A DNA stretch of 64,000 bases from the NCBI GenBank assembly GCA_019744815.1, contig JAIEUA010000001.1:62001-126000 (forward strand), given 5' to 3'. Shown here piece after piece: positions 525 to 37,931 of this stretch (positions are counted from its first letter, which is position 1; every line of letters starts with the position of its first letter). The translations under genes and the position numbers were made by a program. Under the pieces are notes generated by a model. That model worked only from the letters and a program-made list of their open reading frames with translations, was not told the origin of the DNA and did not search any database. Source of the stretch: Phycisphaerales bacterium (lineage in GTDB: Bacteria; Planctomycetota; Phycisphaerae; Phycisphaerales; UBA1924).

Positions 525-2723
525 TCAGAAGGGGCACCACAGAGCCTCGTACGCCGCCGCGAAAAGCACAAAGTCGGCGTCGTCGACGAAGCGGTCCCCG
601 GTGATATCGCCGGGGCAACCGACGGGCATGCCCGGCGTGCCGCAATCCAGAAGCTCGTACATGGCGGCGAACTGCACGAAATCCGTGTCGTCCACGAATC
701 GGTCGGCGTTGAAGTCGCCGCGACACGGCGGGGGCGGAAGTCGCAGGAAGAGCACCTCGTTGAGATGAATCGTCTCGTTGTCGATCGATACCGCTTGCCC
801 GTTGCTGGTCGCGGAGGCGGACATGAAGCCCAGAACGTCAAGAGGGCCGTTGGTGGTGGTGACGTACACCGCGTCGGCCGGGAGCGCGAAGAGCGTTGTT
901 GGTCCCAGGCCGCCGAAGCGGGTGTCCTTGGCCCAACCGAACTGCTTCAGCGTGCCCTTGAACCCGTTCGAGCCCGCGCCCCACATCGGGGAGTTGAGGG
1001 GCGAGCCGGAGAGATTTAGGAACATCCACGCGGTGGTGTTCGAAACGTTGTATCGCAGCGGCGGGAAGTCGATGATCGTGAACACGATCGCGCCCACGGC
1101 ATCGGCCGGGATCTCCAGCCCGGCGAGCATGCCGCTCGCGCTCAAGCCCGGCACGATCCCCGCGATCGCCGCCCCGCCGCTGAGGTTCGCCAAGTACTGC
1201 GTGCGGGGCGAGCCTGCGAAGAACGGATTGGCGTCGGTCGGCGCTTCCAGGATCGCCACGCTGCCGTTGATCGCGCCCGGGGAGTAGGCATCGGCGACGT
1301 GGGCACCGACCTGCAGGCGCCCGTTCGCGCCGCGAGCATCGCCGGCGGAGTTCTTGCCGCCCTGGACGTTCACGCTGGCGACAAAGTCGAACTCGGTCGC
1401 GAGGGCGCGGATGGTGCCGCCCGCGCCGCCGCCGGCCTTGCCCCCGGGCGCACCGTCGCCACCCGCCCCGCCGCTGCCGCCGTTGCCCCCCAGCCCACCG
1501 CTGCCGCCGGAGCCCGAGCCACTCACGCCGAAGCCTCCGAAGAGCCCAAAGTTGCCCGATCCGCCGCCGAACTGCAAGCCGCCGCCGGCGGTGGGATTCG
1601 ATGGCTGCGTGGCGTCGCTGCCAACCGCGGTGAGCGCACCGCGCACGGTGCCGCGGCCGAGGACGGTGATGTCGAGCGCTCCCGCGCCCGCGCCGCCGCG
1701 TGCGCCCGCGCCGCCAACACCGCCGTTGCTCGCGGCCGATCCGCTTCCGCCGCCGCCGCCGGTGCCTCCTTTCGCGCCGACGTTGCACGCGGTGCCGCCT
1801 CCGCCACCACCACCACCTCCGCCGCCACCACCGCCGCCCCGTCCGCCCGCGCCACCACCGCCTCCTCCGCCACCACCTCCGCCGCCGTTGCCGCCGATGA
1901 AGAGCGCCTCGGCGTTGGTGATCACAGTCGCGTTCGCACCTTCGGAGCCGGTGACGCCGAAGCCGCCGTCGCCCCCGGCTTGGCCGTTCCAGCCGCCAGC
2001 GCCGTTGGAGCCGCTGCCGGCGAAGGACATCGCGCCGAAGCCGAAGAACCCGCCGCCACCACCGACGCCACCGAAGCCGCCGGGCGCACCGCCGCCACCG
2101 CCGCCGCCGGTTCCGCCGCTGGCCGCGCCAGAAGATTGTCCGAAGCCCAGGCCGCCCGCGCTGGCGTTGCCACCTTTCGCGCCGCTCCCGCCGTCGCCGC
2201 CGTTCTGTCCCTGCGATCCCGCGGCACCGGAGAACCCAGCGAACCCGCCCGAGGTGCCGCAGACGCCTTTGTTCCCGCCGTTGCCGAAGTTGCCACCGCT
2301 GCCGCCCAGCGGCAGCAGGATCGACGCCTGCCCCGCCGCACCGGCGACGCCCGCGCTGCCCGCCGCGCCGCCGCCCGGGCCAGGCGTCGCGCCGCTCGCC
2401 GAGGCGTTCCACGAGCTGCCCGCGCCCATGACCAGGTTGTTGCCCACGAGAATGCGGCACGGCCTCGAGCCGGTGATCGTCACCGACTGATGCGCGGGCA
2501 GCACAAGGTCGCCCTTGATCGCGAAGACCGCGACACCGTTGTCGAGATACGCGCGGAACGCGGTACCGTTGAAGGAGGACGACAGGCCATCGGTGTCGCC
2601 GGTGATGGTCTGCGTCGTCGTGTTGATGACAACCTGAGCGTGTGCGGCACCGGCCGCGCCGGCGAGCGCCAGCGCGAGCCCGCACCACCGACCACGCTGT
2701 CGGACGCCGACACGACACCGCAT
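525..2723 (-). CDS. Glycine-rich secreted protein with C-terminal GC-type dockerin-like tag
   Basis: The protein has 732 residues. ATG at 2723 is preferred over a longer ORF because it follows GGGGAGAG and begins a clear signal peptide (residues 1-29, ending AGAAHA). A short N-terminal beta-type domain (VVINTTTQTITGD) is followed by a very long low-complexity region of GG, GA and GS with runs of nine or more glycines. A C-terminal domain of about 170 residues contains RTQYLANLSGG. The tag is the last 65 residues or so, with two DxNxDxxVDDxDF halves, and ends WCPF, one residue beyond the usual LCP. It is a paralog of the gene at 17408-19576: both begin with INTT..TISGD, then GSRP and a glycine desert. 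It is probably an extracellular or surface structural protein, but its role is unknown. The G+C-rich repeat gives long proline-rich antisense ORFs that are shadows. Confidence 0.85.
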   Translation of the reverse strand: MRCRVGVRQRGRWCGLALALAGAAGAAHAQVVINTTTQTITGDTDGLSSSFNGTAFRAYLDNGVAVFAIKGDLVLPAHQSVTITGSRPCRILVGNNLVMGAGSSWNASASGATPGPGGGAAGSAGVAGAAGQASILLPLGGSGGNFGNGGNKGVCGTSGGFAGFSGAAGSQGQNGGDGGSGAKGGNASAGGLGFGQSSGAASGGTGGGGGGGAPGGFGGVGGGGGFFGFGAMSFAGSGSNGAGGWNGQAGGDGGFGVTGSEGANATVITNAEALFIGGNGGGGGGGGGGGGAGGRGGGGGGGGGGGGGGGTACNVGAKGGTGGGGGSGSAASNGGVGGAGARGGAGAGALDITVLGRGTVRGALTAVGSDATQPSNPTAGGGLQFGGGSGNFGLFGGFGVSGSGSGGSGGLGGNGGSGGAGGDGAPGGKAGGGAGGTIRALATEFDFVASVNVQGGKNSAGDARGANGRLQVGAHVADAYSPGAINGSVAILEAPTDANPFFAGSPRTQYLANLSGGAAIAGIVPGLSASGMLAGLEIPADAVGAIVFTIIDFPPLRYNVSNTTAWMFLNLSGSPLNSPMWGAGSNGFKGTLKQFGWAKDTRFGGLGPTTLFALPADAVYVTTTNGPLDVLGFMSASATSNGQAVSIDNETIHLNEVLFLRLPPPPCRGDFNADRFVDDTDFVQFAAMYELLDCGTPGMPVGCPGDITGDRFVDDADFVLFAAAYEALWCPF

Positions 2724-2833
2724 CGCGCACTCTCCCCTGCGGCCCCCCCACCACCATCCACTTGCACGACCCGCCACGAAACCCGGCAGTCCCACGCACC
2801 GCGACGCGTTGAGCGAGTCTACCGCAGACCAAC

Positions 2834-2863
2834 GAAAAACCGCCCCGCAATCTGCGGGGCGGC
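2834..2863 (-). terminator. Rho-independent terminator after the metzincin gene
   Basis: Read on the minus strand, CCGCCCCGC and GCGGGGCGG form a stem around ATTGC and are followed by TTTTTCG. It lies about 40 bases past the protease stop codon. Confidence 0.8.
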
Positions 2864-2903
2864 GAGCGAATCGCTGGTTACCGGAACTGCATGCCGCGTG
2901 GCC

Positions 2904-5285
2904 TTACGGGCAAAGCACCTCGTTGTACGCCAGGACGAAGAGCTGGAAATCCAGATCGTCGACGAAGCGGTCGTTGTCGAGATCGCACGGGCAATCGGGC
3001 AGCGTGCCGCCGGCTCCGACCGTCGAGCGGGCACCGCCGCCGCCCGGGTCGATGATGTCGCAGACGAGCTCGTCGTACGCGACGACAAAGATCTGGAAGT
3101 CGAGATCGTCGACCAGGCCGTCGCCGTTGAAGTCGGCGTCGCAGGGCGGGAGGATGTTCTGATCGAGGAAGGCGATGGCCTCGCTCGAAGGACAGCCGGT
3201 CGCGATCGAGATGTCGTGGGCGGATTCGTCGGCGTCGAGCACGATCCGGTACTTGAGCTTCGCCCAGTCGTTGTGGCCGTTGAGCGTCTGGCCCGGCGAA
3301 GGGCCGGTGGTGCCGGCGATCCCCGCGGCTGGCGGCAGGAAGTTGAGATCCGCCGCGCTCGAGGCAATCCGCCCGTTGGCGTTGAAGTCGGTCGGTCGGC
3401 CGTCGAGCTTGACAAGCCGCATCCCGCGGGCGAGGTCGGGACCGACGCCGTAGGGCATGGAGTAGTTGCGATACTGGCTGGACGCAATGCCACCCGCCTC
3501 GTCCAGCGACTGTTCCAGCATCGGCGCCAACTCTTCGCGGGAGTAATCGAGCGTCCAGAAGCGGCTGCTCCAGCGCATCGGGTGGGCGAGTGCGTAGTTC
3601 ATGATGCTCGGGTAGTTGGGCTTGCCCTGGAACGACGCGCCGGCGGGCGTGTCGGTGCGGCCGCCGTGATAGAGCCCCAGGGTGTGCCCGAACTCGTGCA
3701 TGAAGGTGGCGGCGCGATCGTCGGAATCGCGGAAGCCGTCATTGAAGATCGCCGCGGCGAAATCGACCACGAAATCGTTGCCTCCGATCTCGCCGATCCC
3801 GTTGAAGGGGGTGGCGTTGGCGAGGAACTGGATGCCGTCGTAGATCAGGCAGTAGCGGAACACCTTGGCCTTGGCCTTCAGGATGTTGGCCGCATTGGAA
3901 TCACCACGCTCGGCGACGGTGCCGAAGTGCGCTTGCTTCGATGCCTTGAACCCCTCGGGGAAGTCGCCGAACGAGATCGCGTTCGGCAACAGCACGTTGG
4001 TCTCGTCGCGCACGATGTGAAGATGGATGCCGGTGGTGTTGTCGGGGTTGGTCACCGGCGCGTTGTCGAAGGCGAGGAGCAGTTTCGAGACTTCGGCGTC
4101 CGCGAGCGGGATGGTGCCGGCGTCGACCTCGACGAAGAGGTCCTTGTGGTCGGGTCGGGCGCCCAGGTCGTAGGGCTTGAAGTCGATGACGCCGTCCCGG
4201 TTCACATCAATGCCGCCGTTCTCGGATTCCCAGCGGTCGAGCAGCCCGTCGCCGTCGGTGTCGATATCGACCTGGATCTTCATGCGGAAGATGTGCCCGG
4301 TGTTGTCGCGCGGGTCCTCGGCGTAGCCGACGATCCAGCCGGTCTCGCTTGCAGCGTCGGCGTCGAAGAGCGTCGGGACAAAGCCGAGAAACGCGCCGAT
4401 CTCGTCGTCGAGGTTGTGCCGCACGCCGTTCTTGATCACCCAGACCTTGCCGTCGCACTCGGGGCTGCACAGGCCGCGATCGGAGCCGATGATCTGCCCG
4501 TCGAGCGTCACCGCGAGCGCGCGGCTGCTGTTGCCGGTCTCCGACGCAATGAAGCGCTCGATCCCGCCGACGACCGCGAGCCCCTCGCTGGGAGCATCGG
4601 GATCGGAGAAGTAGCGGTAGCCGCACCAATCGCCCTTGCTGTTCACAAAGGTGACCCGCGCCCCGGCGCCGCCAAAGCTGCCCAGGTTCACCGGCGATCC
4701 GAAACGGGTCTTGAAGACCACCGACTCGGGCCCGCTGAAGAAGTCCGATCCCCACACGCGGCCTTCTTCGTCGATGAGCCTCCAGCGGGCATCGGGTGGC
4801 AATTCGGTGGTGCCGTTCTCGTCGAGCCGCACGTCCACCTCGATGCCGCTGGCCGGGAAGCTTCGCCCGACCATCCAACCCCTGTTGTTGATGTCGTAGA
4901 GCGCGAGGCGTGTGAAGATGTCGAACGGGGAGCGGTTCTGGCCGCGGATGCCGAAGGGCGGGAACTTCTGAAACGACCCACCGACACAGACGCCCAGATC
5001 GTTCATGCCGTTGAGCGTGACGTCGAACCCACCGTTGTACGGCGCGTTCTGGAAGTAGCGGAACTCCTGAAAGATGAAACCACCGTAGTAGCCGCAGAAA
5101 TCGCCGTTCGCGTTCACGGCGGTGGTGATGACAAAGCCCTGATTCTGGAAGATCGGAAGGAACTCAAAGGAGTCGATGACGATGTTCGGTGTCGGATCGG
5201 CGGAAGCCAAGGGTGCGAGCGGACCACCCGAAGCCGCGATGACCATTCCGACCGTTCCAACGCCCGAAAACAACGACCACTTCAT
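2904..5285 (-). CDS. Secreted metzincin-type metalloprotease with GC-type dockerin-like tag
   Basis: The protein has 793 residues. ATG at 5285 follows GGAGG, and a signal peptide covers about residues 1-29. The N-terminal 330 residues contain repeated 'NxxGDxCGY' motifs resembling HAF-type repeats of exoproteins. The catalytic signature HEFGHTLGLYH begins at residue 530, giving the three zinc histidines H530, H534 and H540 and the catalytic Glu531. SIMNY about 30 residues later supplies the Met-turn (M562). That combination defines metzincins. The tag fills the last 90 residues or so, with DFQIF and DFQLF halves separated by an unusually long Gly-rich linker, and ends VLCP. The enzyme should be exported and should cleave protein substrates. 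Its substrate, and whether the tag docks it onto a partner, cannot be told from sequence. Confidence 0.88.
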   Translation of the reverse strand: MKWSLFSGVGTVGMVIAASGGPLAPLASADPTPNIVIDSFEFLPIFQNQGFVITTAVNANGDFCGYYGGFIFQEFRYFQNAPYNGGFDVTLNGMNDLGVCVGGSFQKFPPFGIRGQNRSPFDIFTRLALYDINNRGWMVGRSFPASGIEVDVRLDENGTTELPPDARWRLIDEEGRVWGSDFFSGPESVVFKTRFGSPVNLGSFGGAGARVTFVNSKGDWCGYRYFSDPDAPSEGLAVVGGIERFIASETGNSSRALAVTLDGQIIGSDRGLCSPECDGKVWVIKNGVRHNLDDEIGAFLGFVPTLFDADAASETGWIVGYAEDPRDNTGHIFRMKIQVDIDTDGDGLLDRWESENGGIDVNRDGVIDFKPYDLGARPDHKDLFVEVDAGTIPLADAEVSKLLLAFDNAPVTNPDNTTGIHLHIVRDETNVLLPNAISFGDFPEGFKASKQAHFGTVAERGDSNAANILKAKAKVFRYCLIYDGIQFLANATPFNGIGEIGGNDFVVDFAAAIFNDGFRDSDDRAATFMHEFGHTLGLYHGGRTDTPAGASFQGKPNYPSIMNYALAHPMRWSSRFWTLDYSREELAPMLEQSLDEAGGIASSQYRNYSMPYGVGPDLARGMRLVKLDGRPTDFNANGRIASSAADLNFLPPAAGIAGTTGPSPGQTLNGHNDWAKLKYRIVLDADESAHDISIATGCPSSEAIAFLDQNILPPCDADFNGDGLVDDLDFQIFVVAYDELVCDIIDPGGGGARSTVGAGGTLPDCPCDLDNDRFVDDLDFQLFVLAYNEVLCP

Positions 5286-5388
5286 GCAGGACCTCCGCCC
5301 GTGAGGTCGCGATCCTACCGGCTTCTTTCACAATTCCCAAGAAGTTTCCGGAGAATCCGAGGGCCGAATGCCCCCCCGCTTTGGACGC

Positions 5389-8300
5389 TTACGGACACAG
5401 CAGCTCGTCATAGGCGTTGGCAAAGAACACGAAGTCGGCGTCATCCACAAACAAGTCCGCGTTCAGATCCGCCGGGCAACCGGAGGGCATGGCGGGATCG
5501 GCGCAGTCGAGGATGTTGTACGCGGCCGCGAAGATCACGAAGTCCGCGTCGTCCACCACGGTGTCGTCGTTCAGATCGGCTGGGCAAGGCGGCGGCAGCT
5601 GGATCACGTTGGCGGGCACGTCGATCGTGCCGTTGTTGATCAACGTCTTGTAGTAGATGCGGGAGCAGCCGGTGTTGACGAGCCGCGCGCCCGCGTCGAC
5701 CTGGAGGGTGTCCACATAGATCGCTTCGCAGCCGCTCAGCCCGTCGTTGTCGCGGGCGTCGACGATTCGAACGACGGAGGGAAACTCGACCTGCAGATTC
5801 TTGATCGGATAGCGCCCGGGCTGAGAGACGTTGAGGCCGCCGAGCGTGGGGCCGAGATCGGTGCTCATCGCCTCGAACGTCTGCTCCGCACCCGTGGCCG
5901 CGAAGCGAATAGTCGCGTCGTTGGCGACAAACCGGCTGGAGCTGTCGATCGCGGCGTCAAAGGAACCGCTCAGGCGCACCGTTGCATTGCCGAAAACCGT
6001 GAAGCTCGCGTGGGCGTCGATGCTGACGCGCGGCGTGTTGAACTGCACATCGGCACCGGAGTACACACGCATCTGGCCGAAGAGGGACACGCCGGTGGCG
6101 ATGGAGAGCGTGCTCGCGCCGTAGATGCGGGCCGTGCTGCGGGAGCCAAGAAGCATACTCTGGCTGCTGACTTTGTTGTTGCCCAGCAGGACAATCGTGC
6201 CGAACACATCAAGCGCGCTCCCGGCGGTGAGGGACGAGATTGACTGCAGCATCACCGATGCCTCAGAGGGCCAGCGGACGTCTCCCGCGGCGGTGAGGCC
6301 GATGGCGCGTGCGCCCGTGTCGATCGCAGCGATCGAACGCCAAGCGAGTTCGCTGGCGGAGAGCGACTGACCGGAGGCGAGGGGCGTGAGCGCAGCGGCG
6401 ACGGATGGATACGTCGCGTCGGGATTAAGGTTGTTCTTGGCCCAACGGGAGTCCTCGACGGCGAATGACGCGCTGTTGTACGCAGGGGTGCTGATGTACG
6501 CAGCGCCGCGACCGGCAGCAGAGTCGATGCTGGTCATGGGCGCACCGACAACAAACGCTGAGCCGCTGAGCGCGACCGAGCGGCCGTACTGGTTGCCCGG
6601 GGCACCTTCTGCCGGGGCGTGACGAGCGACCTGCGACCAGGTGGTGCCGCTGCGGCTGAAGACGTAGGCACAACCGGGAATGTTGGTCGTGCCGTTGGCC
6701 TGGTAGGGAGCGCCGACCAGCGCGGTATCGGTATTGAGCGCGACCGACGCACCGAAGCCAGCGTTTGCCGCGCCGTCAATCGGCGCGAGCTTCGCGACCT
6801 GGTTCCAGAATGAGCCGGCGCGGGTGAAGATGTAGGCGGCACCCTGGCTGGTGTTGGCACCGATGCTCTTGTTGGGCGCGCCGACGAGAGCGGTGTCGCC
6901 GGAGACAGCGAGGGACGCCCCGAAGAAATCAGAGGACGCGCCGTCGGACGCGGAGAGCACAGATCGCTCGGTCCACGCGGCGTCCGAGCCGGTGAAGGCC
7001 CACACGGCCCCCTTGCTCGAGAACAGCGGGGCGCCGACCAGCAGGTTGGTGCCGGAGATCGATACCGACGATCCGAAGTAGCTGAACGATGAGCCGCCGG
7101 AAGCGGTCAGCTTGGCTCTCTGCGGCCAGGTGCCGTTCAGGGCCTGCACGAAGACGTAGGCGGCACCCTGATTCTGATTCGCCCCGACGGTCGATGTCGG
7201 CGAGCCGACCACGGCGGTGGTTCCGGAGATGGAGACCGACGAACCGAAGGATCCGGTGCTCGCGGCATCGGACGCGACAAGTTTGGCCCTCTGCACCCAG
7301 GCGACGCTGGGCGACGTCACGCGGCTGAAGAGGTACGCGGAACCCTTTCCGTTGTTGGCGGAGCGCGCACCGATCACCGCGTTCGTGCCGGAGATCGCGA
7401 CGGCGTTGGCAAAGCCATCAAGCGCGACGCCGTCGGCCGCGGAGATGCGGGCTTCCTGAATCCAGGAGTCGCCGGAGCGAACGAAGAGATAGGCGGAACC
7501 CTGATTCCAGTTCGCGCCGACCGCATCTTTGGGCGCGCCGATGATGGCGAAGTCGCCCGAGACCGACACGGACGAGCCCAACTGGTCGTTGGCGATGCCG
7601 TCGCTCGCGAGCAAGCGAAGGTCGCTGCCGATCCACGCACTGCCGACGCGAGAGAACGTCCATGCGGACCCGCGCAGCGTGCCGGCAATGAGATCGCCCG
7701 GCGTTCCCACCACCGCGGTGTCACCGGAGATCGCTACTGCAGCCCCGAACTCGCCGCTCTCCGTGCCACCGGGCGCGAAGAGCTGGGCCTGCTGCGTCCA
7801 GGTTGTTCCGGAGCGCGTGAAGACGCACGCGGAACCCTGGGCGAGCCGCGTCCCGACGGTGTCGAAGCTGGCTCCCACGACCACGGAATCACCGGCCATG
7901 GCGACGGAGGTTCCGAACTGATCGAAATCGGATCGGTCGGGAGCGACGAGTTTGCCCTGATTGGACCAGGTTCCCGCCGAGCGAACGAAGACGTACGCCG
8001 CGCCGGTGCTCGCGTCCGTGCCGGGAGCACCGACGGCGATGGTCTCCTGGGCGATGGCGACGCTCGCGCCGAAATCGGCACCGGTGAGGGTGTCCGGACT
8101 CGCGACCCGAGCCTGCTGACTCCAGACGTTCCCGGATCGCGTGAAGATGTACGCCGCACCGGTGGCCGAGGCTGGCAGATTCTTCGCGACCGGAGCGCCG
8201 ACAACGAGGGTGCCGTCGCCGAGCGAAACGGATGTGCCGAAGCGATCACCCATCGTCGTGTCGAGGCCGGCGACCTTGGCGATCTGACCCCAGTTCGACC

Positions 8301-9158: not shown

Positions 9159-9164
9159 GGGGTG

Positions 9165-12444: not shown

Positions 12445-15400
12445 TCACGGACACAGCAACTCGTTGTAGGCGTTGGCGAAAAGCACGAAGTCTGCGTCGT
12501 CCACGAACAAGTCCGCGTTCAGGTCCGCCGGGCAACCGGGGGCCATGGCAGGATCGGCGCAGTCAAGGATGTTGTACGCCGTGGCGAAGATCACGAAGTC
12601 GGCGTCGTCCACGAGCGTGTCCCCGTTCAGATCGCCCGGGCACGGCGGCGCGAGCGGGATCACATTCGCGGGGAAGTCGATCGTGCCGTTGTTGATCAGC
12701 GTGTTGTAGTAGATGCGGCAGGCGGGGTTGATGAGCCGGCTGTAGGTATCGATCTGGAGCGTGTCGACATAGATCGCCTCGCACGAGCCCTGGCCCAGGC
12801 CGTCGTTGTCGTGGTTGTCCACCAGGCGAACGAGGCTGGTCACCTGGCCGATGCGGAGCGTGCCGATCGGGTAGTGGCCCGGGAAGTTGCGGTTCAGCCC
12901 GGTTGCGCTCGGGCCGACGTCTCTGGACATCACTTCCAGGGTCTGCTCCGTCAACACGGGAAATCCGTTCTCGAACTGCAGCGTCGCCTGGCTCAGGTCG
13001 TAACGAGTGTTGTTGTTGAGAGCGCTGTCGAAGTTGCCTTCCATTCGGAACGTCGCGCCAGCCACCGGCAGCTTGAGCGTGGCTTCCGGAGCCAGCGTCA
13101 GGTCGCCCCAGACTTCGAGCTTCGGGGCCGCGGACGGGCAGCTGGGGCATGCCGCGCCGATGAACGTGCCGTTGTTGATGAAGGATCCCTGCACGAGGAA
13201 CGTGCCGCTCGCGTTGGTCGTGGCGGCGGCGTTGTTGACATAGGACGCTTCGAACGTGGATGTTCCCTGGCTGCTCAACGAAGCGGCATTGGTGAACGAG
13301 GGGGTGTTCACCGTTGTATTGGTGAGCGAGCACACCGCGTTGTTGGTCAGCCCACCGAAGGATTCGATCACCAGCGGACTCTGCGCTGTGAGATCGTCAT
13401 GGAGCACCACGGCACCGGCCGCGGAGAGGCGAGACCCGGGATCGAGCTGCGCCGGGCCATCGAACTGCACCTGGGACCCGTTGATGCTGAGCCAGGCGCC
13501 CGTGAAGAGACGAAGGCTGCCGCGGGAGCCGAGACGGAAGGAATCCGCCAAGATGGTTGCCGCCTGATTGCCCGTGACGCTCAGGGGCCCGAAGATCTCG
13601 GCGACGCTGCCGGAGGGTGCGATCAGCGTCGATGACCCGCCGAGCACGAGCGCGGTGGTTGATGGGGTCCGGATGTCGGCGCCGCTCCTCAGCGTGAGAT
13701 CGCGGCCGGCGGTATCGAGCGACGCCGCGGTGCGCCACGCGGCCTCGGTGGCGGTGATCTGCTGGCCGGTGGTCGCGGGCGACACGGCCGCGCCAAGGGT
13801 GGAATACCCCACGGCGGTGTCGTCGTTGCGTGCAAAGGAAAGGTCCTGGGCCACCACGTTGAAGACCCATGCCGAGCCCTGGTTGGTGTTCGCCCCGACA
13901 TCGACGCCGTAGGCGCCCGCGATGACGTAGTCGCCGGAAAGGGCGACGCTGAACCCGAAACGGTCCAGTGCGCCCCCGCCGTCGGGCGCGGTCAGCTTGG
14001 TGCGCTCGGTCCATGCGGAAACGACGCGCGAGAAGACATAGGCCGAACCCCGGTTGACGTTCGCACCGATGTCGTCGAGGTCGGCGCCGATGACCGCGGT
14101 ATCGCCCGAGAGAGCGACGCTCCTGCCGAAGGTATCGCTTGCCGCGCCATCGGATGCGGTGAGCTTGGCCTGCTGGGTCCACGTCGTGCCGGAACGGACG
14201 AAGATGTACGCCGCACCCTGGCTGGAGTTGGTGCCCTGGGCGCCTGCGATGGCGGTGTTGCCCGAGAGAGCGACGGAGGAGCCGAAGAAATCGCTCGCGG
14301 CGCCGTCGGATGCGGTGAGTTTGGCCTGCTGCGTCCAGGTCGTGCCGGAGCGGACAAAGACATAGGCCGAGCCCTGATCGGCGTTGGCACCAAGATTGTC
14401 GTTGCTGGCCCCGACGACGGCGGTGTTCCCATCGAGGGCGACGGACCAGCCAAAGAAATCGGCCGCCGCGCCATCGGAGGCTGTGATCTTGGCCTGCTGC
14501 GTCCACGTCGTGCCGGAGCGGACAAAGACGTAGGCCGAGCCTCGGTCGGCGTTGGTGCTGATGTCGTCGCCATAGGCGCCGATGATCGCGGTATCGCCCG
14601 AGATGGCGGCGGCGTAGCCGAAGAAATCGCTGGCTGCGCCGTCGGACGCGGTGAGCTTGGCCTGCTGCGTCCAGGTCGTGCCGGAGCGGACAAAGACGTA
14701 CGCGGAACCCTGATTGCTGTTGGCGCCAACATCGTCGCCGTAGGCGCCGACGATCGCCGTATCGCCGGAGATGGCGACGGAGGTGCCCAAAAAGTCTCCC
14801 AGGGCGCTGTCGGATGCGGTGAGCTGCGTCTGCTGGATCCAGGACATTCCGGAGCGGACATACACGTACGCCGAGCCCTGCTGGCTGCTCGTCAGAGTGC
14901 GGTTGGACGCGCCGACGATGGCGGTATCGCCAGAGATGGCGACGGAGTACCCGTAGAAATCGCCCGCCGCGCCGTCGGAGGCAACAAGCTGCCGGTCGGC
15001 CCCGATCCATGCGGGGCCCACCCGGGAGAAGATCCACACCGAGCCCTGGTTCAGGTTGGCGCCGACGTCATCAAGGGGGACACCGACCATCGCGGTGTCG
15101 CCAGAGACGGCAACACTGGTACCGAACCCGTCGCTCGCGGCGCCGTCCGGCGCGATCAGCTTCGCTTGCTGCGTCCAGGTCGCGCCGGAACGGACAAAGA
15201 CATATGCGGAGCCTTGGTCGGCGTTGCTGCCCACATCATCGTTGCTCGCGCCGACAATGGCGGTGTTGCCGGAAATGGCGAGAGAACTGGCGAAAGAATC
15301 CCCTGCTGCTCCATCGGAAGCCGTCAGCTTGGCCTGCTGGCTCCAGGTGGTTCCCGAGCGAACAAAGACGTACGCCGAGCCCTGGTCGGCGTTCGCGCCG

Positions 15401-16423: not shown

Positions 16424-17299
16424 TCAAGGGCACAGCACGGCGTCGTAGGCCACCACAAAGATCTGGAAGTCCAGGTCGTCCACTACGCCGTCGGTGTTCA
16501 AGTCCGCGCTGCAGCCGGCGGGCATCTCCGGGGCCGCGCAGAGCACCGCGTCGTACTGCACCACGAAGATCTGGAAATCGAGATCGTCCACCACGTTGTC
16601 GGCGTTGAGGTCGCTTGGGCACGACGGCGCGAACGTGAGGATGAGTTGGGCACGGCCACCCAGCGGCGGGTCGTAACTGCTGAACGCGAAGAGCGACTGC
16701 ACGCCGGGCGTGGTGGGGATCACCATCGAACCACCCAGCGCGATCGATCCGCCTCCGGAGTCGAGCAGGGCGTTGGCCGCTTGGACAAAGGCGGGAGTGA
16801 GCGTGACATCGAGCGTGGCCGGGATCGACGCCGGGTTGTCGGCGAGCGTGACCACCCGCTCGGCGTAGATCACGCCGTTGACGAAGTCGTTGTAGATGTC
16901 GAGGCGTCCGGAGAACGGCGTCGAGTCCGCCGCGAGCGCGGGGACGAACGCGGGCTGGACGTCGCGGAGGACGTACTTGCCCGGCGACACGACAAGCTGC
17001 ACGGCGTTGAAGCTGATCCGCGGCGCGAAGGTGGCGGCGATGATCCGACGTCCCTGCGGCCGCGCCTCGGGCCCGAGCGTGAAGACCGCGAAGTTTCGGA
17101 TGAAGAAGGTGTTGAGCCGCCCGCAGAGCATGTTGCCCAGCGCCGAGCCGAACGCCGCGTTGTTGCGGCCGTACTCGTCCACCGTGCCCTGGGCGGTCGC
17201 GCTGATGGTCACGGTGGTCGCCGCGCTGGCGCCGCCCGCCAGCACACCCATCGACGCCGAGACCAGCAACGCCCTGAGCGACACCCTGAGCAAAGCCAT
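16424..17299 (-). CDS. Secreted protein of unknown function with GC-type dockerin-like tag
   Basis: The protein has 291 residues. ATG at 17299 follows AAAGGGAG, and a signal peptide runs to ASA at about residue 26. The body of about 190 residues begins TTVTISATAQGTVDEYG, contains RNFAVFTLGP and a serine/aspartate pattern of an all-beta secreted domain, and ends with RAQLILTFAP directly before the tag. I recognise no enzyme motif. The layout resembles the DNRLRE/TGF-like beta domains seen in carbohydrate-binding exoproteins, but this is only an impression. The tag halves are both DFQIF, with the linker CAAPEMPAGC, and the end is AVLCP. It is the smallest intact member of the tagged set here. 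Confidence 0.8.
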   Translation of the reverse strand: MALLRVSLRALLVSASMGVLAGGASAATTVTISATAQGTVDEYGRNNAAFGSALGNMLCGRLNTFFIRNFAVFTLGPEARPQGRRIIAATFAPRISFNAVQLVVSPGKYVLRDVQPAFVPALAADSTPFSGRLDIYNDFVNGVIYAERVVTLADNPASIPATLDVTLTPAFVQAANALLDSGGGSIALGGSMVIPTTPGVQSLFAFSSYDPPLGGRAQLILTFAPSCPSDLNADNVVDDLDFQIFVVQYDAVLCAAPEMPAGCSADLNTDGVVDDLDFQIFVVAYDAVLCP

Positions 17300-19733: not shown

Positions 19734-22700
19734 CTACGGACAGAGGACCGCGTCGTACGCCACCACGAAGATCGAGAAATCCTGGTCATCCACGAGCAAG
19801 TCGCTGTTCAGATCAGCGCTGCAACCCGACGGCATGCCCGCGTCGGCGCAGTCGAGCACGTCGTACTGAACGACGAAGATCGAAAAATCGGCGTCGTCGA
19901 CGAGGCCGTCGCTGTTCAGGTCGGCCGGGCACGGGCCGTAGAGCCGCAGCACGTTGGGGAGCGTGGCAATCGTGCCGCGCTTGGTGATGGTCTTGTAGTA
20001 CACGCGGCAGGCGGGTGCGTTGAGCACGGCCCCGCTCTCGATGACGAGGTTGTTGACGTACACGGCTTCGCAGGCGGATTGGCCCAGCGTGTCGTTGTCG
20101 CGGTTGTCGACGATGGTCACGATGGTCGGCTGGCTCGGATTGCCAGGGCCGATCTTGAGCGTGCCGATGGGGAAGGAGCCGGCGAGCGCGGGGTTGAGGG
20201 CGGAGACGGCTTGTCCGCGATCCGTGGACATCGCTTCGAGTGTGAAGCCGCCCCGGCCGTTGAGCTGGAGCGTGGACTGATTCATCGCGTAGCGGCTGTT
20301 GAGGTTGATGGCGCAGTCGAAGCTACCGGCGGTGCGGACGATCGTGCCGGGCGACGGCGTGAGCGTGGAGGCCGCGTCCATGCTGATGCCGCCGGTGGTG
20401 AAGATGGTCTGGGTCGCGCGATCCTCGAAGGGCGGGGCGTAGAGACCCAGCGGGTCGCTCGCGGCCGAGAGCGCGGAGCGTGCGGCGACGCTACCGATGA
20501 TGGTGCCGCTGTTGGCGAGCGTGCCGAAGACGGTGAGCGTGCCGCTGAAAACGGTCACGGTGCCGCCGGCCTGGTTGGTGAAGTTGCCGATGACCTGGGT
20601 GTTGGCGTCGATGTCAAAGAGGCCCGCGTTGGTGACGGGCGCCGCGATATCGCCGTAGCCGGAGAATTGAGCGCCCGCCGAGTTGGTGACGCTGGTCGCG
20701 GCGACGACGCCGCCGAGGAGCGTGAGCGTGCCGTTCTGGTTCAGGGCTCCGACGCTGAGCGTGGCATTGGGCAGGATGGTGGCGCTGCCGCCAAAGACCG
20801 GGCTGGGCGGGGTGATGGTGAGCGTGGCGCCGACGCCGACGTTCAGAGTCGAAGGAAGATCGAGGTTGAGCGTGCCGGCGCTGATGCGGCTGTTGGCGCC
20901 TGAGGGCACATCGAGCTTGTTCCAGAGCTTCATGTCCGAGGTGGAGGTCGAGAGCTCGCTGCCGTCCGCGAGGGTGATGGTGTGCAGCGCCGAGAGGAAC
21001 GGCACAACGGGGACGTTCAGTTTCGCCTCGGTATTCCCGAAGCTGAAACCGCCCGAGCGGGCGAGCGGTCCGAGCTCGGAAGCGAGGCTTTCCTTGAGCC
21101 CGGCGGCGTTGAACATGCTGGCGAGGCTGGCGTAACGGATGCCGGTGGAGTTGTTGATCGGGAACGGATCGATGCGTGGGCTGTCCTGCAGGCGACGGAA
21201 CGCGCCCTGGTTGGTGCCGCCGGGAAGGCTGATCCCGCCGCCGCCGGCGAACGTCGCGCCCCCGGCGTATCCGACGGCCTCGCCGAGATTGTCGCTCGCG
21301 TCGACGGCGCCGGGAAGGAAGAGTGTTGGGTTCGAGAGCGTGCTGCCGCTGCGGGGGAATCGGTACACGGCCCCGCCCCCGGCGTAGTTGGGCATGCCGA
21401 CCAGGATGCAATCCGATTGCACCAAGACGGACGAGCCGAACGACGCGGGGCCGGCGGTGAGCGTACCGCGGGTCACAAGATTCGAGCCGTTCCACTCGAT
21501 GCAGATGACACGGCGACCGGGGACGCTCGCCGCCGCAAACATCCCGGCGCGGGAAGAGATCACGCTGCCGAGGCTGTCGTTGTCAGACGTTCCGGTAAAC
21601 GAGCTCGCTCCGTTGTTCGCCCAGGCAGTCCCGTTCCATCGGTACAGGAAAAGCGCGCCGCGGTTGTTGATCCCGGTGGTGTCGTAGCCGGGCACGCCGA
21701 TCAAGGCGGAGTCGCCCTCGATCGCGACCGCGGCACCGAAGAAGTCGTTCGTGGAGGGGGCGGAAAGCGAGACCTTCGAGACCTGCGACCATGTGCTGCC
21801 GGATCGGGCGAAGAAGCAGGCGCTCCCCGCGCTCACCTGGTTGATAAGAGAGATGGGAATGTTGTCGTTGGGGGCTCCGATCAGGGCGCGATCGCCGCTG
21901 ATGGCGACGGACGTCCCGAAAGCATCCAACGCCGTTCCGTCGCTGGCCGTGAGCTTGGCCTGCTGCGACCAAGTCACGCCGTTGAACGTGAACACGTAGG
22001 CGGCTCCGGCACCGAATCCGGCCTGCGGGTCTTTCGGGGCGCCGACGATGATCGTGGTGCCATCGATCGCGAGCGCGGCACCGAAGTTGGCGCCTGCGGC
22101 AGGATCGGCCGGAAGCAGTTTCTGCTCGAGCACGAAGGACTCGTCCTGGAATCGGTAGACGTACGCCGCACCTTGGTCGGCACCCGCGGCGCCGTCCTCG
22201 GCCAGGGCGCCGACCACGAGCCGGATGCCATCGTTGGCCATGCGGTTGCCGAAGTTCGCGTTCTCCTGAGGCGTCGGGGGCGCGATCAGGAGGGTGCGAT
22301 TGGGCTCTCCGCTGATGCGACGGAATGCGTACGCCGCGCCGGCGCCCGTGGCCCCCGGACGGTTGTAACTGAAGCTGCCCGTGACCACGAACTGATCGCT
22401 GATGCCGACCGAGGCGCCGAAGAGGGCGCCGGCCTGGGTCTCGCTGGGCTGGAAGAGCTCGCTGGCGCTCCAGACGCCGGCGCTGCGGGTGAAGAACAGG
22501 CCCGCGCCCTGATTCGAGCCGACGATGCCGTCGTAGGTTTGCAGACCCGCGACGATCGTGTCACCCTCGATGGCGAGGGAGGTCGGGAAGAAATCGTTGA
22601 CGAGGGGGCCGGTGCGGGTGAGTTTCTGCTGCTGGGTCCACGACGCGCCGGAGCCGGTGTAGACGTAGATCGCGCCCTGGTTGCCGTTGGTGGTGAGATC

Positions 22701-32917: not shown

Positions 32918-33243
32918 GTCTTTCTCCCATTCCCTGAGGCCGCCGGTTGATTCAACTGGCGGGCCGGTCGCTCCTTGACCGGGCTTGTCACGAGCACTCG
33001 CTCGACAGTTCAACCATGCCACGGGAATGGGGAGTGGGCCCGCATTCGCGGCTTGGAAGCAGCGAAGGTGAGTCGAGCTTGACGGGTGTCACGGTGCGGT
33101 CGTCGCAGACGGTGCAGTGTGTCGAGATTCTCGGACACGGAGCCGCGGCGCTCGTGTGGGCACCAGACGCCCGGTCTGACACCCAAAAGAAACCGCGGCC
33201 GGAGCGGCCGCGGTTGGAACACGAGCGCAACTCTTTGCTCATC
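32918..33243. other. Gene-free stretch upstream of the PEP-CTERM-like gene
   Basis: It holds the promoter region of the minus-strand gene ending at 32195 and the terminator at 33186-33215. Nothing else is recognised. GCTTGGAAGCAGCGAAGG near 33050 faintly recalls the SRP RNA core, but the rest does not fit. Confidence 0.5.
33186..33215 (-). terminator. Terminator of the disrupted tagged-protein gene
   Basis: On the minus strand, AACCGCGGCCG and CGGCCGCGGTT form an 11-bp stem around CTC, followed by TCTTTTGGG. Confidence 0.75.
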
Positions 33244-34459
33244 TCACGGGCAGAGCACGGCGTTGTACGCGACGGCGAAGATTTGGAAGTCGAGGTCGTC
33301 CACGCGTCCGTCGGTGTTCAGATCGGTACTCGTACGTACGCTGGAACGGGACCACAAACGAGAACGGTGCGGGCGTGCCGAGGATCCCGCCGTCTGCGTC
33401 GGGCAGCATCGAGAGCGCCGGGATCTGGAGAAAGCTGTCGTACACCTCGACGGCGTCGGGGCCCACGTTGCTCGCGACATCGGTGAAGAGCCCGCCTACC
33501 GGGTTGACCGAACGCGAGAGCTGCAGGTACCAGTTCCCGAAGTTCTTGGCCGCAGTCGGCCACGCGCTGTTCTCCGGCACCGTGTCGGATTCGTCGTTGC
33601 GCAGCGAGATGCCCGTGAGCGATGTGCCCGGACCGAACGAGTCCAGCTCGCCCGGTCCGACGATGGTCGCGATGGTGCGCGGATCGCGGTCGAAGGGAGT
33701 CGAGAACGTCCCGGTACCGCCGTCGGCGGTGGCGAACTCCTCGCCGACGTACAGCTTGTTGACCCCGGCCGAGAGTCGCGCGGTGTCGCGAACAAAGCCG
33801 ATGCGGATGACGGGCGCGGCGTCGGTGATGATGCCGGCGAGCGCGGACTGTCCGTTCGCGAAGGTGTGAGCGATGCCGGAGACGGCGTGCCCATCGACGA
33901 TGCCGGCGACGCCGCCGACCTGGCCGCTGTGGCGGATGGTGATGACCAGTCCGTCACCGGTGTAATAGAACGGTGTGGAGAACGTGATGGCGGGCCCGAA
34001 GCTCTCCGCGTTGGGGGCCGCGGCACCGGCGGTGAACACGCCGGCGAGCGGGCCGAAGAGTCCGTCGCGTACCTTGACCTCGGTATCCGCGACGACGTTG
34101 TCGCTGAAGGTGGAACTCATGTTCGACGCGATCCGGGCCGCCTTGGCCAAGCGGATCTCGTAGTCGGAGAAGGTGGTCGCCGCGGGTGGCCAGGCGGCCG
34201 CGACCGAAGCGTCCAGCCGGAACGCGATCGAGGTGATCACGCTGCCGACGGGGATCTGACCGAGCATGCTCTGGTTGATGATGACCTGAGAGGTGCGAGC
34301 ACCCGCTGCGAGCGGGGCCGTGCCGAGGTTGTTGCCGTCGGTCGTGTTGATCCCGGCGTCGGGAACGACGCCGGTTTCAGCGGTCTGGGCGAGAGCGGAC
34401 GGGACGCCGGCAGAGGCGCCGGCCAGCAGCGCGAGCTGCAGAGCGTTTCGAGCGTGCAT
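33244..34459 (-). pseudogene. Secreted beta-domain protein with dockerin-like tag, reading frame broken before the tag
   Basis: ATG at 34459 follows AAGGAA, with a signal peptide (residues 1-24, PSALAQ). The body has two copies of the roughly 200-residue beta domain also found five times in the protein at 34668 (GQIPVGSVITSIAFRLDAS, WPPAATTFSDYEIRLAKA, NMSSTFSDNVVADTEVKVRDG). The second copy stops abruptly at FVVPFQRTYEYR. From there the original frame reads an Arg-rich tail to 33239. A tag half, STDLNTDGRVDDLDFQIFAV ending AYNAVLCP at 33244, continues in another frame from about 33340. Compared with relatives, about 80-100 residues (the end of the beta domain and the first tag half) are missing. 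The simplest reading is a deletion not divisible by three. A sequencing error alone would not explain the missing segment. Confidence 0.75.
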
Positions 34460-34587
34460 GGATGGTTCCTTCTCTTGAAGCGCCCGATCGTCACCGGATC
34501 GTCAGCGAGCGGTGCGAACCGATCGGGCCTCCAGAACCACGCGAGAACGCCGACCAGAACGCGCCGCGCCGGGAGAGCCGCAGGTCC

Positions 34588-34620
34588 AAGAAAAAAGCCC
34601 GCGGCAGCGTGCCGCGGGCT
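34588..34620 (-). terminator. Terminator of the five-domain tagged protein gene
   Basis: On the minus strand, AGCCCGCGGCA and TGCCGCGGGCT pair around CGC, followed by TTTTTTC. It lies about 50 bases past the stop. Confidence 0.85.
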
Positions 34621-34667
34621 GAATGGAGCTCGTTCAGAGGCCCAGTGAAGGGCACATGGCAGGGCGG

Positions 34668-37600
34668 CTACGGGCAGAGCACGGCGTTGTAGGCCACGAT
34701 AAAGATCTGGAAGTCGTCGTCGTCGACGACGCGGTCGAAGTTGAAATCCCCGGGGCAGCCCAGTGCCATTCCCGCGTCGGTGCAGTCGAGGATGTTGTAA
34801 GAGAGGACAAAGGCCTGGAAGTCGAGATCGTCGACCACGCCGTCGTTGTTGAGGTCCCACGGGCAGAAGGCGTCGTCGGTGAAGGCGAAAAGCGTGGTCG
34901 GAGGCTTGCGGAAGCTGCCGGTGGCGGCGTCGGGGTTCGAGGTATCACGCACGCCCTGGATGTCCGTGACCGGGGCGCCGTCGGAAGTGGTTTCGAAAAA
35001 GCCGCTGGCCGGGCCGGTCGGAACGCTGGATCGAATCGTGAAGGCCAGGGTGCCGCCCCGGTAGACAAACGGGCGGGTAAACTGAATGAACACTCCCCAG
35101 TCCTCGCGATCGGAGGTGGAGCGCGCGGACCACGAGCCGGGTTTGAGCGTGAGCGGCCCGGAACGAACCTGAACCAGATCGGAACCGTCGTTGTTCGCGA
35201 CCGTCAGGCTCGCGGTCGCGGCCGTCTTGGGCGAGGTGCTCATCCACAGGTCGAATCGCGTGAACGAAACACCGGCTGACGGGAAGTCGGCAATGGTGCC
35301 CGGCTCCAGCCTCCAGGTCACGCCGTTGATGGTGGCGCCCACGGGAACGCCGACGGCCTCGGGGTTGTAGAGCATCTGGAACGTGCGCGAGACGCCGAAG
35401 AGATCCCGATCAAATGTCGCGGGCGTGGCGATCCGCGACTTCGGTGTGGTTCCCGCGGGGATGTACCCGAGCTGGATGGCGGCACCGCTGACGGCGAACA
35501 GGGAGCCGTTGGCTGCCGCCTTGTTGCCGAGGTTGAACGCCGCCCGGGTCGCCGTTGCCGGTCCGGCGCTCCGGAGGTTCGGACCGCCATTGTTCACGGG
35601 TGCGTGACGGATCGTGATGCACAACGAGCCGCCCTTGTACACGAAGCCCCGGTCGAAGGTGATGGTGGCGCCGAACCGGCCGGTGGAGCCAGCGGGCAAG
35701 GCACCGGGTTCCCAAGCGATGGGTCCCGATCGGACAATGGTCGCATCGGCACCGGCGTTGTCCGCGAACGTTGTGCTCATGCTCTGGGGCTGGTTGGCGG
35801 CGCTGCTGATCTCGATGGAGAGATCGTCAGCGTTCACGCCCGTCGCGCCGGGCCACGCGGCCTGTGACGAATCGGCCACCAGACTGAGCGAGGTGATCAG
35901 GCCGCCCACGGGGATGTAGCTCAATTCGGAGGCAGCGAGCAAGACCTGAAGCGTGCCTTCGCTGGACGAAGTCGGAGCGCTGGAACCGTAGATGCCGTTG
36001 AATCCGACGCCGTCCTTGAGCGAGTTGGGCACCAGGACCTGAGCGTCGGCGGAGTAGCGGGCGACGGGAACGTTGCTGATGACCGAGATGGTGGCGGCGT
36101 TCACGGTGCCGGGGTTCAATCCGCCGCGTGCAAACGGTTGGAGCGTCGTGTTGCTTCCGGTGACGGCGTCCACCTGGCCGCTGACGCCGACCGCGATGCC
36201 CTGGTTGTTGATGAGCATGTCGAGGGCACCGGCTCGGTAGGCATAGGGCTCCGCGAAGGGGATGGTCCAAGTGAAGGCCGCGGTTCCGGTCGCGGGCTTG
36301 GCGGCCATGGCGCCGGCGGGCACGCCGAGCGAACCGCTGCGAACGGTGACGGCGTCGGAGCCGCTGTTGGAGGCGACCGTGGACGACATCGTTGCGGGAG
36401 TCAGCGGGCTCCTGCTGAGGCGAACATCAAACTGCGGGTAGTTGCCCAGCGCCGGGGGCCAGGCGGTCGGCGTGTTGTTGCGGAAGCTCACCTCATTGAG
36501 CCACGTGCCCGGGCCGACGGTCTGGAACTGCTCGGGGCCGTAGAGGTACTGGCTGGTGAAGCCGATGGACCGCGCGAAGCCGACGTAGAAATCGCCGGGC
36601 ACGGTGTCGGCAAACTGCTTGAGGGCATAGATCTTGGTCACGCCGTCGCCGAAGGGGGACTGCACCGGCGGGACGAACGAAAGGCGCACGATGAAGGCGC
36701 TACCTCCTGAAGAACTGGTGGCCGTCCTGGGGGAGGCGGTCTTGCCGTTCGCAACGGCGGACCCAACGACGCAGTCGGCGAATTTCACGGGAGAGATTCC
36801 GCCGGCGCTCTGGATATCGATCGCCAATGCGCCGCCCTGATAGAGGTATGGCGTCTGGAAGTCGATGACGGGACCCCAGCCTTCGGGCGTGGTTCCGGTG
36901 TTGGCTCCGGCCGGGTAGACCCCGGCGGGCAGAAAGTACGACCCGTCCCGGACGCGCACCGCGTTGAGCTGGTTGCTCGCGTACGTGTTGCTCATGGAGG
37001 CCGGCGTGAGCGGCGATTGAGAGAGCCAGATCTCGTAGTCGGCGTTGGTCGAGTCGGCCGCCGGCCAGCCGGTTGTTTCGGCGTTGCGAAGGCGGAGCTG
37101 CATGCCGGTGATCAAACTGCCGGGCGGAACTGAGGCGAACTGGTCGGCTGCGTAGAGCGACATGTGACGCCCGTCGCTGAACGCGCCGAGCGGGATGGAG
37201 TTTTCGCTGCTGCCCGCGACGGTGTCGTTGGCGTTGGGGAGCGTGACGGCCTGGGTGTTGGGCGGGGTGATGCCCAGCCGGATGATCATCGCGCTGGTGA
37301 GAAAGCCGCTCGTTTCCGCGTTCGAGGTCGTGTTCCCGAGCGCACGGCCCACGTCCGTGGACGTGACCGCGTCGCAGTAGACGACCGTGCTGGTGCCGGT
37401 GTTGCGGAGCTCGATGACCAGCGGCCCGCCGGTGTAGGTGTACGGCGTGAAGAGGGTGATGACCGGTCCCCATCCTTCGGGGGTCGATCCGGTCGCGGCA
37501 CCGGCCGGATAGGCACCGGCCGCGAGGTTCAGTGGGCCGGAGCGGACGACCACCGGATTGGCGATGTTGTCGGCGAGCGTGGTCGAGAGCGTGGCGGGCG

Positions 37601-37931
37601 TTTTGGTCGAGCCCCCCATCTTGATCTCGTAACTGGCAATCGTCGACGCGGACGGAGGCCAGTTCGCCGACTCAGCGTTCCGCAGGCGGAGCTGGATCGA
37701 GGTGATCTTGCCGCCGATGGGAAGACCCACCAACTGGCTGGCCGGGTAGAGCACCTGAAAGGTGCCGCCGGCGCCCGCACCGATGGGGATGCTGTTGTTG
37801 GAGTCGCCCGCGATGGAAGCGTTCGTGGGGGGCACGACCTCGAAGGACTGAGCCTTCGCGAATGGCGTCAGGGACGCCAGCGCCATCAACGCCGTGCCGA
37901 CCGCTGTGTGCCAAGAAAGGTGAGTACGCAT
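34668..37931 (-). CDS. Secreted protein with five beta-domain repeats and GC-type dockerin-like tag
   Basis: The protein has 1087 residues. ATG at 37931 follows AAGGAG, with a signal peptide ending FAKAQ near residue 29. Five units of about 190-210 residues repeat the order IPxGxxITSxxLRL..., W-P-A, YEIxLSxSPxTPATMSxT, A-N...VRSGxLxLxAGxxPAG, WGPxIxFxxPYxYxGGxLxIxI. Each looks like a beta-sandwich. I do not know the family, though the style fits extracellular binding modules. The C-terminal block RKPPTTLFAFTDDAFCPWDL leads into the tag (DFQAF and DFQIF halves), which ends AVLCP. The neighbour at 33244 and the fragment at 38149 are paralogs, so this locus has expanded by duplication. The extracellular role is unknown. 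Confidence 0.86.
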   Translation of the reverse strand: MRTHLSWHTAVGTALMALASLTPFAKAQSFEVVPPTNASIAGDSNNSIPIGAGAGGTFQVLYPASQLVGLPIGGKITSIQLRLRNAESANWPPSASTIASYEIKMGGSTKTPATLSTTLADNIANPVVVRSGPLNLAAGAYPAGAATGSTPEGWGPVITLFTPYTYTGGPLVIELRNTGTSTVVYCDAVTSTDVGRALGNTTSNAETSGFLTSAMIIRLGITPPNTQAVTLPNANDTVAGSSENSIPLGAFSDGRHMSLYAADQFASVPPGSLITGMQLRLRNAETTGWPAADSTNADYEIWLSQSPLTPASMSNTYASNQLNAVRVRDGSYFLPAGVYPAGANTGTTPEGWGPVIDFQTPYLYQGGALAIDIQSAGGISPVKFADCVVGSAVANGKTASPRTATSSSGGSAFIVRLSFVPPVQSPFGDGVTKIYALKQFADTVPGDFYVGFARSIGFTSQYLYGPEQFQTVGPGTWLNEVSFRNNTPTAWPPALGNYPQFDVRLSRSPLTPATMSSTVASNSGSDAVTVRSGSLGVPAGAMAAKPATGTAAFTWTIPFAEPYAYRAGALDMLINNQGIAVGVSGQVDAVTGSNTTLQPFARGGLNPGTVNAATISVISNVPVARYSADAQVLVPNSLKDGVGFNGIYGSSAPTSSSEGTLQVLLAASELSYIPVGGLITSLSLVADSSQAAWPGATGVNADDLSIEISSAANQPQSMSTTFADNAGADATIVRSGPIAWEPGALPAGSTGRFGATITFDRGFVYKGGSLCITIRHAPVNNGGPNLRSAGPATATRAAFNLGNKAAANGSLFAVSGAAIQLGYIPAGTTPKSRIATPATFDRDLFGVSRTFQMLYNPEAVGVPVGATINGVTWRLEPGTIADFPSAGVSFTRFDLWMSTSPKTAATASLTVANNDGSDLVQVRSGPLTLKPGSWSARSTSDREDWGVFIQFTRPFVYRGGTLAFTIRSSVPTGPASGFFETTSDGAPVTDIQGVRDTSNPDAATGSFRKPPTTLFAFTDDAFCPWDLNNDGVVDDLDFQAFVLSYNILDCTDAGMALGCPGDFNFDRVVDDDDFQIFIVAYNAVLCP

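Follow-up and report, generated by a model that had tools for sequence, protein, structure and literature searches.

The window analysed here is a 64,000-nucleotide stretch (positions 62001-126000 of contig C2) of the 4.11 Mb draft genome, 91.8% complete, of a Phycisphaerales bacterium, and it encodes eight proteins that end in the same kind of C-terminal tag, in which the pattern D-x-N-x-D-x-x-V-D-D-x-D-F-[14]-x-F occurs twice. We numbered each half over 25 columns from its first Asp (column 1), which makes the residue after DDxDF column 14, and this residue and its counterpart in the other half of the tag are the main subject of our analysis. All of the tags lie on the reverse strand. Val stands at column 14 of both halves (V/V) in the tag at 534-716 (halves 642-716 and 534-608, column-14 codons 675-677 and 567-569, protein stop 525) and in two tags on FG-GAP repeat proteins, at 5395-5577 (halves 5503-5577 and 5395-5469, stop 5389) and at 12451-12633 (halves 12559-12633 and 12451-12525, stop 12445), the last being the sequence that we modelled for structure. 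Gln stands at both places (Q/Q) in a tag with a long linker at 2910-3134 (halves 3060-3134 and 2910-2984, column-14 codons 3093-3095 and 2943-2945, stop 2904) and in the tags at 16430-16612 (halves 16538-16612 and 16430-16504, stop 16424) and 34674-34856 (halves 34782-34856 and 34674-34748, stop 34668), and Ser (S/S) in those at 17414-17596 (halves 17522-17596 and 17414-17488, stop 17408) and, on a further FG-GAP repeat protein, at 19740-19922 (halves 19848-19922 and 19740-19814, stop 19734). All eight pairs of residues are as the initial annotation had given them, and the lone surviving half in the frame ending at 33244 carries Q, as it had also claimed. This half occupies 33250-33324 (coordinates calculated from the frame listing), in a frame that differs from that of the long open reading frame 33239-34459. 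A second remnant, a single half with L at column 14, lies at 38152-38226 (coordinates obtained in the same way) and is absent from the initial annotation; it adjoins the gene at 34668-38396, and the profile match that covers it (38161-38253) contains a stop. The window tags are not eight independent cases: the proteins ending at 5389 and 12445 have near-identical tags, and so do those ending at 17408 and 19734. At the genome-wide rate of identity reported below (0.61), eight matches out of eight have a probability of about 0.02, and the window is thus cleaner than the genome.

A signal-peptide-like N-terminus, judged by eye, is present in six of the eight tagged proteins. In a Pfam scan of the eight, FG-GAP repeats were found in three and metallopeptidase matches below the cut-off in one, and no glycoside hydrolase was listed. 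The three FG-GAP proteins, ending at 5389, 12445 and 19734, are V/V, V/V and S/S, respectively, and a homologue of one of them elsewhere in the dataset (L095; 43% identity over 1090 residues) is Q/Q. With respect to family, the Pfam dockerin model PF00404 scored 13.6-14.7 bits on three of the eight window proteins and listed nothing on the other five, against a gathering cut-off of 22.9, and of its 16 matches above the cut-off in the whole genome, 12 coincide with tags found by the NCBIfam model NF041540 (GC-type dockerin) or by a profile of the window tags. These two each return about 130-160 tag matches in the source genome, in lists that contain repeated or partial matches. NF041540 itself lists 134 matches at E <= 10, the best at 27.2 bits against a cut-off of 29, and gives four window tags 15.2-20.4 bits. 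Judged by these scores, the tags of the source genome are divergent relatives of the GC-type dockerin and not members of NF041540. In two loci, L057 (G000:C7:254892-256418) and L096 (G000:C10:36368-40441), a Pfam Dockerin_1 match of a different type lies upstream of the C-terminal tag.

For the genome-wide comparison, a half profile was first built from the window tags, and 73 stretches were picked from the Pfam, NF041540 and window-tag profile match lists, the last of which covers 150 scored candidates out of 258. A tag pair consisted of the final two half matches of a protein, each of at least 8 bits and less than 60 residues apart. Together with the window, this gave 177 source-genome tags with two readable halves, after the removal of seven further segments in which at most one half was usable. 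Of the 354 halves, 353 have Asp at column 10, and there is hardly any variation at the conserved core columns 13, 16 and 20. Most of these tags carry four conserved cysteines and a longer linker after column 25, of about 11 residues, with an extra Cys pair.

Column 14 was identical in 108 of the 177 tags, compared with a mean of 47.1 (standard deviation 5.06, maximum 68) when second halves were shuffled in 20,000 rounds. Identity of the two halves therefore lies far above chance, and the mismatch expected by chance, which would have spoken against the observation of the initial annotation, was not seen. Its stronger claim, that the residue never differs within one tag, fails across the genome: 69 of the 177 tags differ, for example as S/Q, Q/S, Q/T or V/Q, and we reject an absolute same-residue rule. 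The same letter in both halves is a strong preference, not a law. The matched tags are V/V (67), Q/Q (25), S/S (14), L/L (1) and T/T (1), and the 69 mismatched ones include, in either order, Q/S (9), S/T (8), Q/T (5), V/Q (4), V/S (3) and V/T (3). V facing Q, S or T was observed 10 times against 67.1 expected. The match is not merely one of V against the rest, because tags with only Q and S at column 14 also exceed expectation (39 of 48 identical versus 25.1), as do tags without V in either half (41 of 91 versus 24.2 in the source genome, and 39 of 92 versus 15.5 in the six relatives and G051 described below). Among all 625 pairs of columns between the halves, column 14 of half a with column 14 of half b (14a-14b) ranks first by excess mutual information, both in the source genome and in the pooled relatives.

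When the class of the column-14 residue was set against protein type or operon, a weak effect of neighbourhood was all that appeared: tagged genes less than 5 kb apart share the class of the first half (V, polar or other) in 46 of 83 pairs, compared with 33.9 expected (standard deviation 4.4). In one region outside the window (G000:C2:394000-457000, L047-L050), 28 tagged genes are packed into about 63 kb. Elsewhere (L068, frames starting 10273 and 11346), two paralogues have single-half tags, with Q at column 14 and Trp at column 19 in each.

The comparison was extended to relatives, which are metagenome-assembled genomes of Phycisphaerales/Planctomycetota. In six of them we collected 273 tags from 74 loci, found by patterns of which one demands V, Q or S at column 14 of one half; this skews the composition of the set, not the pairing of the halves. 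From a genome of the same genus (G051), 90 tags were kept, taken from stretches around the best-scoring of the listed matches (105 matches reported). Column 14 matches in 165 of the 273 tags of the relatives (107.5 when shuffled) and in 57 of the 90 of G051 (42.9 when shuffled, with a maximum of 55 in 20,000 rounds), and V facing Q, S or T is again scarce, with 37 cases versus 87.5 in the relatives and 10 versus 20.4 in G051. A strict pattern applied to 40 listed tails from two other genera of the family retained 19 tags in G060, of which 18 are L/L, and 17 in G045, of which 16 are F/F. Tags of these genera score 49.5 and 71.5 bits with NF041540, above its cut-off, and are thus bona fide GC-type dockerins. 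The residue at column 14 is nearly fixed within each of the two genomes, and their halves follow the same principle of matching with residues other than those of the source genome.

Column 14 is not the only column at which the halves agree. In the source genome, kappa was 0.47 at column 14, followed by 0.32 at column 17, 0.28 at 21, 0.27 at 23, 0.24 at 11 and 0.15 at 18, while the variable columns 2, 4, 6, 22 and 24 showed no match between the halves, with kappa within 0.03 of zero in the 177 tags. On a helical wheel (100 degrees per residue), columns 11, 14, 17, 18 and 21 all fall within 60 degrees of column 14, and the halves agree at four or more of these face columns in 51 of the 177 source-genome tags (10.5 when shuffled), in 25 of 90 in G051 (6.5) and in 47 of 273 in the relatives (12.1). 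The match is real, it is replicated, and it is mostly confined to one face.

An AlphaFold2 model of the tag of the protein ending at 12445 (predicted local distance difference test score, pLDDT, 93.9) has helices at residues 14-26 and 50-62, i.e. columns 10-22 of the two halves. In the VIA structural comparison, all 21 rows were dockerin-containing entries, and the best solved match to the model was 2y3n_B, the type II dockerin DocCel48 of B. cellulosolvens (Z 8.5, 56 residues, 1.6 Å). Foldseek against solved structures gave a best E value of 0.026, with no match at or below 0.001. Going by the model, the tag is predicted to have the dockerin fold, a duplicated calcium-binding loop with a helix. 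In the sequence alignment to 2y3n_B, column 14 corresponds to Met21, column 11 to Ala18, column 17 to Ala24 and column 18 to Gln25. According to excerpts of a study of DocCel48, Met21 of that dockerin sits in a hydrophobic pocket of the cohesin, and dual binding was shown (PMC8063739). For an R. flavefaciens dockerin, the excerpted text of another study names Ile39, Ser40, Val43, Leu44, Met46, Gln47, Ala50 and Lys54 as contacts (PMC5429695). These would fall on columns 10, 11, 14, 15, 17, 18, 21 and 25 and so cover all five face columns, where we equate that paper's positions 11 and 15 with columns 10 and 14 because Ser40 would otherwise hit the calcium-binding column 12. The same excerpts report that changing Val43 to alanine reduces affinity about 100-fold, and state that Gln80, the symmetry mate of Val43, bars a second orientation and leaves a single binding mode (PMC5429695).

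A match on two related helices might also arise inside the tag. If the two column-14 residues, or their surroundings, touched each other or a shared partner within the tag, they could adapt to one another in the interest of folding or stability, and dockerin helices are indeed antiparallel neighbours (PMC8063739, in the part consulted). Column 23, outside the helix, matches as well, and other couplings between the halves are clearly structural, in that loss of Cys at column 25 of half a goes with Thr at 8b and with loss of the Cys that precedes half b. Against such packing, size compensation would favour Q opposite S, yet the tags with only Q and S are mostly identical, as given above; moreover, the counterparts of the matched columns contact the cohesin in the published complexes, and the core columns are nearly invariant. 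We consider it improbable that packing explains the match. The cysteine coupling itself marks a subclass with a short linker (e.g. L064, L072 and L080), in which Cys 25a and the Cys that precedes half b are both missing and position 8b tends to hold Thr in place of Val; 25a-8b is the second strongest coupling between the halves. The two cysteines are both present in 145 source-genome tags, both absent in 24 and mixed in 8, which suggests, from co-occurrence in the sequences, that they form a disulfide.

A few V/V, Q/Q and S/S founder tags might instead have been copied onto many proteins, so that the match would be inherited rather than maintained. Many tags are similar, several window tags are near-copies, and neighbouring genes share a class more often than expected (46 of 83, see above). 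We assessed inheritance by matched pairs of homologous proteins, in the set of 450 tags from the source genome and the six relatives, of which 12 with bodies of less than 80 residues were excluded. Across 158 pairs with homologous bodies, each tag being used once, column 14 had changed in both halves in 51, in one half in 41 and in neither in 66. The odds ratio for coupled change is 8.05 (p = 1.5e-9, the smallest p among the columns tested), followed by column 17 (odds ratio 5.3, p = 6.8e-7). Mild coupling is present at columns 2, 4 and 6 too (odds ratios 2.0-2.3, p = 0.007-0.036), as shared ancestry would predict, and this background probably reflects the unequal divergence of the pairs. Tags switched in both halves occur on homologous proteins, from Q/Q to V/V (43% identity over 1090 residues), from V/V to S/S and from V/V to Q/Q. 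When the tags were thinned to less than 70% identity (138 of 450), column 14 still matched in 61 against 30, and 14a-14b was second of the 625 pairs. When 14b was drawn instead from one of the ten tags most similar in their off-face columns, 61.3 matches were expected in the source genome (standard deviation 5.5, maximum 79) against the 108 observed, and in the relatives and G051 165.3 against 222. The match thus survives thinning and exchange between nearest tags, and the codons at column 14, considered next, differ between the halves as often as expected. We regard inheritance from a few founders as a rather remote explanation.

Matched halves would also result from concerted evolution, the alternative offered by the initial annotation, through recombination or gene conversion between them. 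The data disfavour it for whole halves, since the variable columns off the face (2, 4, 6, 22 and 24) have no excess identity. At the level of DNA, the codons of matched column-14 residues agree at chance (V, 40 of 67 versus 36.5; Q, 22 of 25 versus 22.2; S, 7 of 14 versus 5.2), and 5 of the 14 S/S tags pair a TCN codon with an AGY codon. In the source genome, codon agreement at columns 1, 12, 13, 14, 16 and 20 is close to what chance would give (z from -0.5 to 1.4). An excess of matching codons was found there at V8 (z 4.2, 93 of 149 versus 69.5) and at D10 (z 2.3), and in G051 at F16 (z 3.0), where the V8 signal was not seen; this leaves room for occasional exchange and does not account for column 14. 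Third codon positions agree in 0.610 of comparisons within tags versus 0.574 between tags, a difference in the direction of exchange that includes the effect of matched residues, mixes silent with replacement differences and is not decisive. Finally, among the closest pairs that differ (at least 60% identity), only one half had changed in 24 of 35, and the halves thus move stepwise. For example, a relative of the protein ending at 19734 (80% identity over 1187 residues) is S/V, and the window protein is S/S. Exchange between the halves thus seems to us a very improbable source of the match.

The best-supported mechanism, and one that we judge likely, is a recognition surface with two-fold symmetry, as in dockerins with a dual binding mode. 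The tags would be divergent dockerin-type C-terminal modules, with two loops and two helices, on apparently exported proteins, and an internal two-fold axis would relate the halves. Columns 11, 14, 17, 18 and 21, on one side of the helix, would make up the receptor-docking surface, and selection would hold this surface alike in both halves so that docking could occur in either of two orientations, while the residues of the face would vary from tag to tag (V-type versus Q/S-type) and from genus to genus. Such a face would presumably bind a cohesin-like receptor and work both ways round. Of the pairing or specificity code that the initial annotation had proposed, the part that stands is a selected match, given that column 14 is the strongest of 625 pairs, that the match is at the protein and not the codon level, and that the position aligns with one known to contact cohesin; the part that concerns distinct partners is taken up below as a more tentative proposal.

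Several observations weigh against a symmetric, cohesin-binding surface centred on column 14. In DocCel48, Met21 faces Ile54, and excerpts of that study give the M21A/I54A variant an affinity similar to that of the wild type (PMC8063739). The recognition positions usually listed, in the part of PMC4582956 available to us, are 10, 11, 17, 18 and 22; column 22 is on this list and is unmatched here, and columns 14 and 21 match here and are off it. Column 23, beyond the end of the helix, matches in the source genome (z 5.4), column 15 does so weakly (z 2.9), and column 7 matches in the relatives (z 4.1) and weakly in the source genome. Among the 69 tags with unlike residues at column 14, agreement at the rest of the face is low (kappa 0.06 at column 17, 0.00 at 18, 0.12 at 21 and 0.18 at 11), and therefore a full dual mode would not be expected of many tags; the likeness of the recognition residues of the two repeats holds statistically for the tag family, not for every tag. 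In G051, kappa at columns 17, 21 and 23 (0.49, 0.49 and 0.50) exceeds that at column 14 (0.30), and in two of the relatives, JAFEBO and JAFLCN, column 17 has a higher z than column 14. In the relatives and G051 taken together, predicting 14b from 14a is right in 0.61 of cases and always predicting V in 0.64; V is common there, and the match at column 14 is still above every control. In G045, columns 15 and 18 are unlike between the halves in 17 of 17 tags. The search for a receptor weighs on the same side: Pfam Cohesin (PF00963) has no match in the source genome at E <= 1 (in an assembly that is 91.8% complete, and with a model that could miss a divergent cohesin) and matches in just 5 of 61 genomes of the family, and a planctomycete cohesin profile of four rows matches in 4 of the 61, neither in the source genome nor in G051.

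The proteins that do carry cohesins (L186-L190) come from genomes in which tag matches are few or absent, and of the four genomes with profile cohesins, one has four tag matches and the other three a single match each. Three of these proteins (L188, L189 and L190) are large and combine a cohesin-like module with another dockerin-like module near the C-terminus, resembling 'planctosome' proteins. The receptor of the tags would be either a very divergent cohesin or something else. Among sorting signals of other types, PEP-CTERM (PF07589) has five matches in the source genome, none at the place of a tag in the match lists, and Por_Secre_tail (PF18962, type IX sorting) has no match there.

We further propose, tentatively and with less confidence than the symmetric surface, that V-type faces and Q/S-type faces serve as separate addresses. 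Within one genome, a single reversible tag of two-fold symmetry would then carry several mutually exclusive docking specificities for a receptor family that has gone unrecognised, and proteins would switch destination stepwise through S/V or Q/S intermediates. If residue classes do act as separate addresses, this would show how a bacterium of the Gram-negative type sorts many surface or secreted proteins by a small residue code. More generally, our findings make an orphan tag, present on well over a hundred proteins in a genome, testable as a docking module whose face, residues and expected symmetry are named, set up a search for the missing receptor, and indicate that the receptor faces of duplicated domains can be found from the paralogues of one genome without a known partner.

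The initial annotation had supposed the agreement of the halves not to have been described. For this planctomycete tag family, in line with the supposition, we found no account of such symmetry among the listed hits from the open-access literature, and a text search of that literature for the GC-type dockerin by name found no paper. The supposition does not hold for the principle, since matched residues together with a dual binding mode are already established for cellulosomes. The primary reports of dual binding are said to be those of Carvalho 2007 and Pinheiro 2008. The GC-type dockerin is likewise C-terminal and built of two halves in the same layout, and it matches weakly throughout the source genome; it ends in Gly-Cys, whereas most window tags end in Cys-Pro. 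In the same phylum, the 'planctosome' of freshwater Planctomycetes is, according to the excerpts at hand, a dockerin system that is not cellulosomal (PMC6461901). Similar proteins with HYR, cohesin and dockerin-like modules are those of L188-L190, and 'planctosome' cohesins are absent by profile from the source genome and G051. The cellulosomal dockerins with a dual mode (type I of C. thermocellum and C. cellulolyticum, DocCel48 and R. flavefaciens group 4) have two loop-helix repeats, as do the tags described here, and the two repeats tend to share recognition residues, which differ between groups or species, as far as the excerpted sources go (PMC8063739; PMC4582956; PMC5429695). Unlike them, the tags have no recognised cohesin in their own genome and mostly carry four conserved cysteines, their strongest matched column is 14 rather than 10/11, the window proteins scanned are not cellulases, and the residue at column 14 is polymorphic across a single genome. 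The closest counterpart at this column is the single-mode group 1 of R. flavefaciens dockerins, in which the position that would correspond to column 14 is decisive and V in one repeat opposite Q in the other is named, in the excerpts of PMC5429695, as the reason for the single mode; in contrast, V opposite Q is rare in the source genome (4 of 177 tags), and matched tags prevail.

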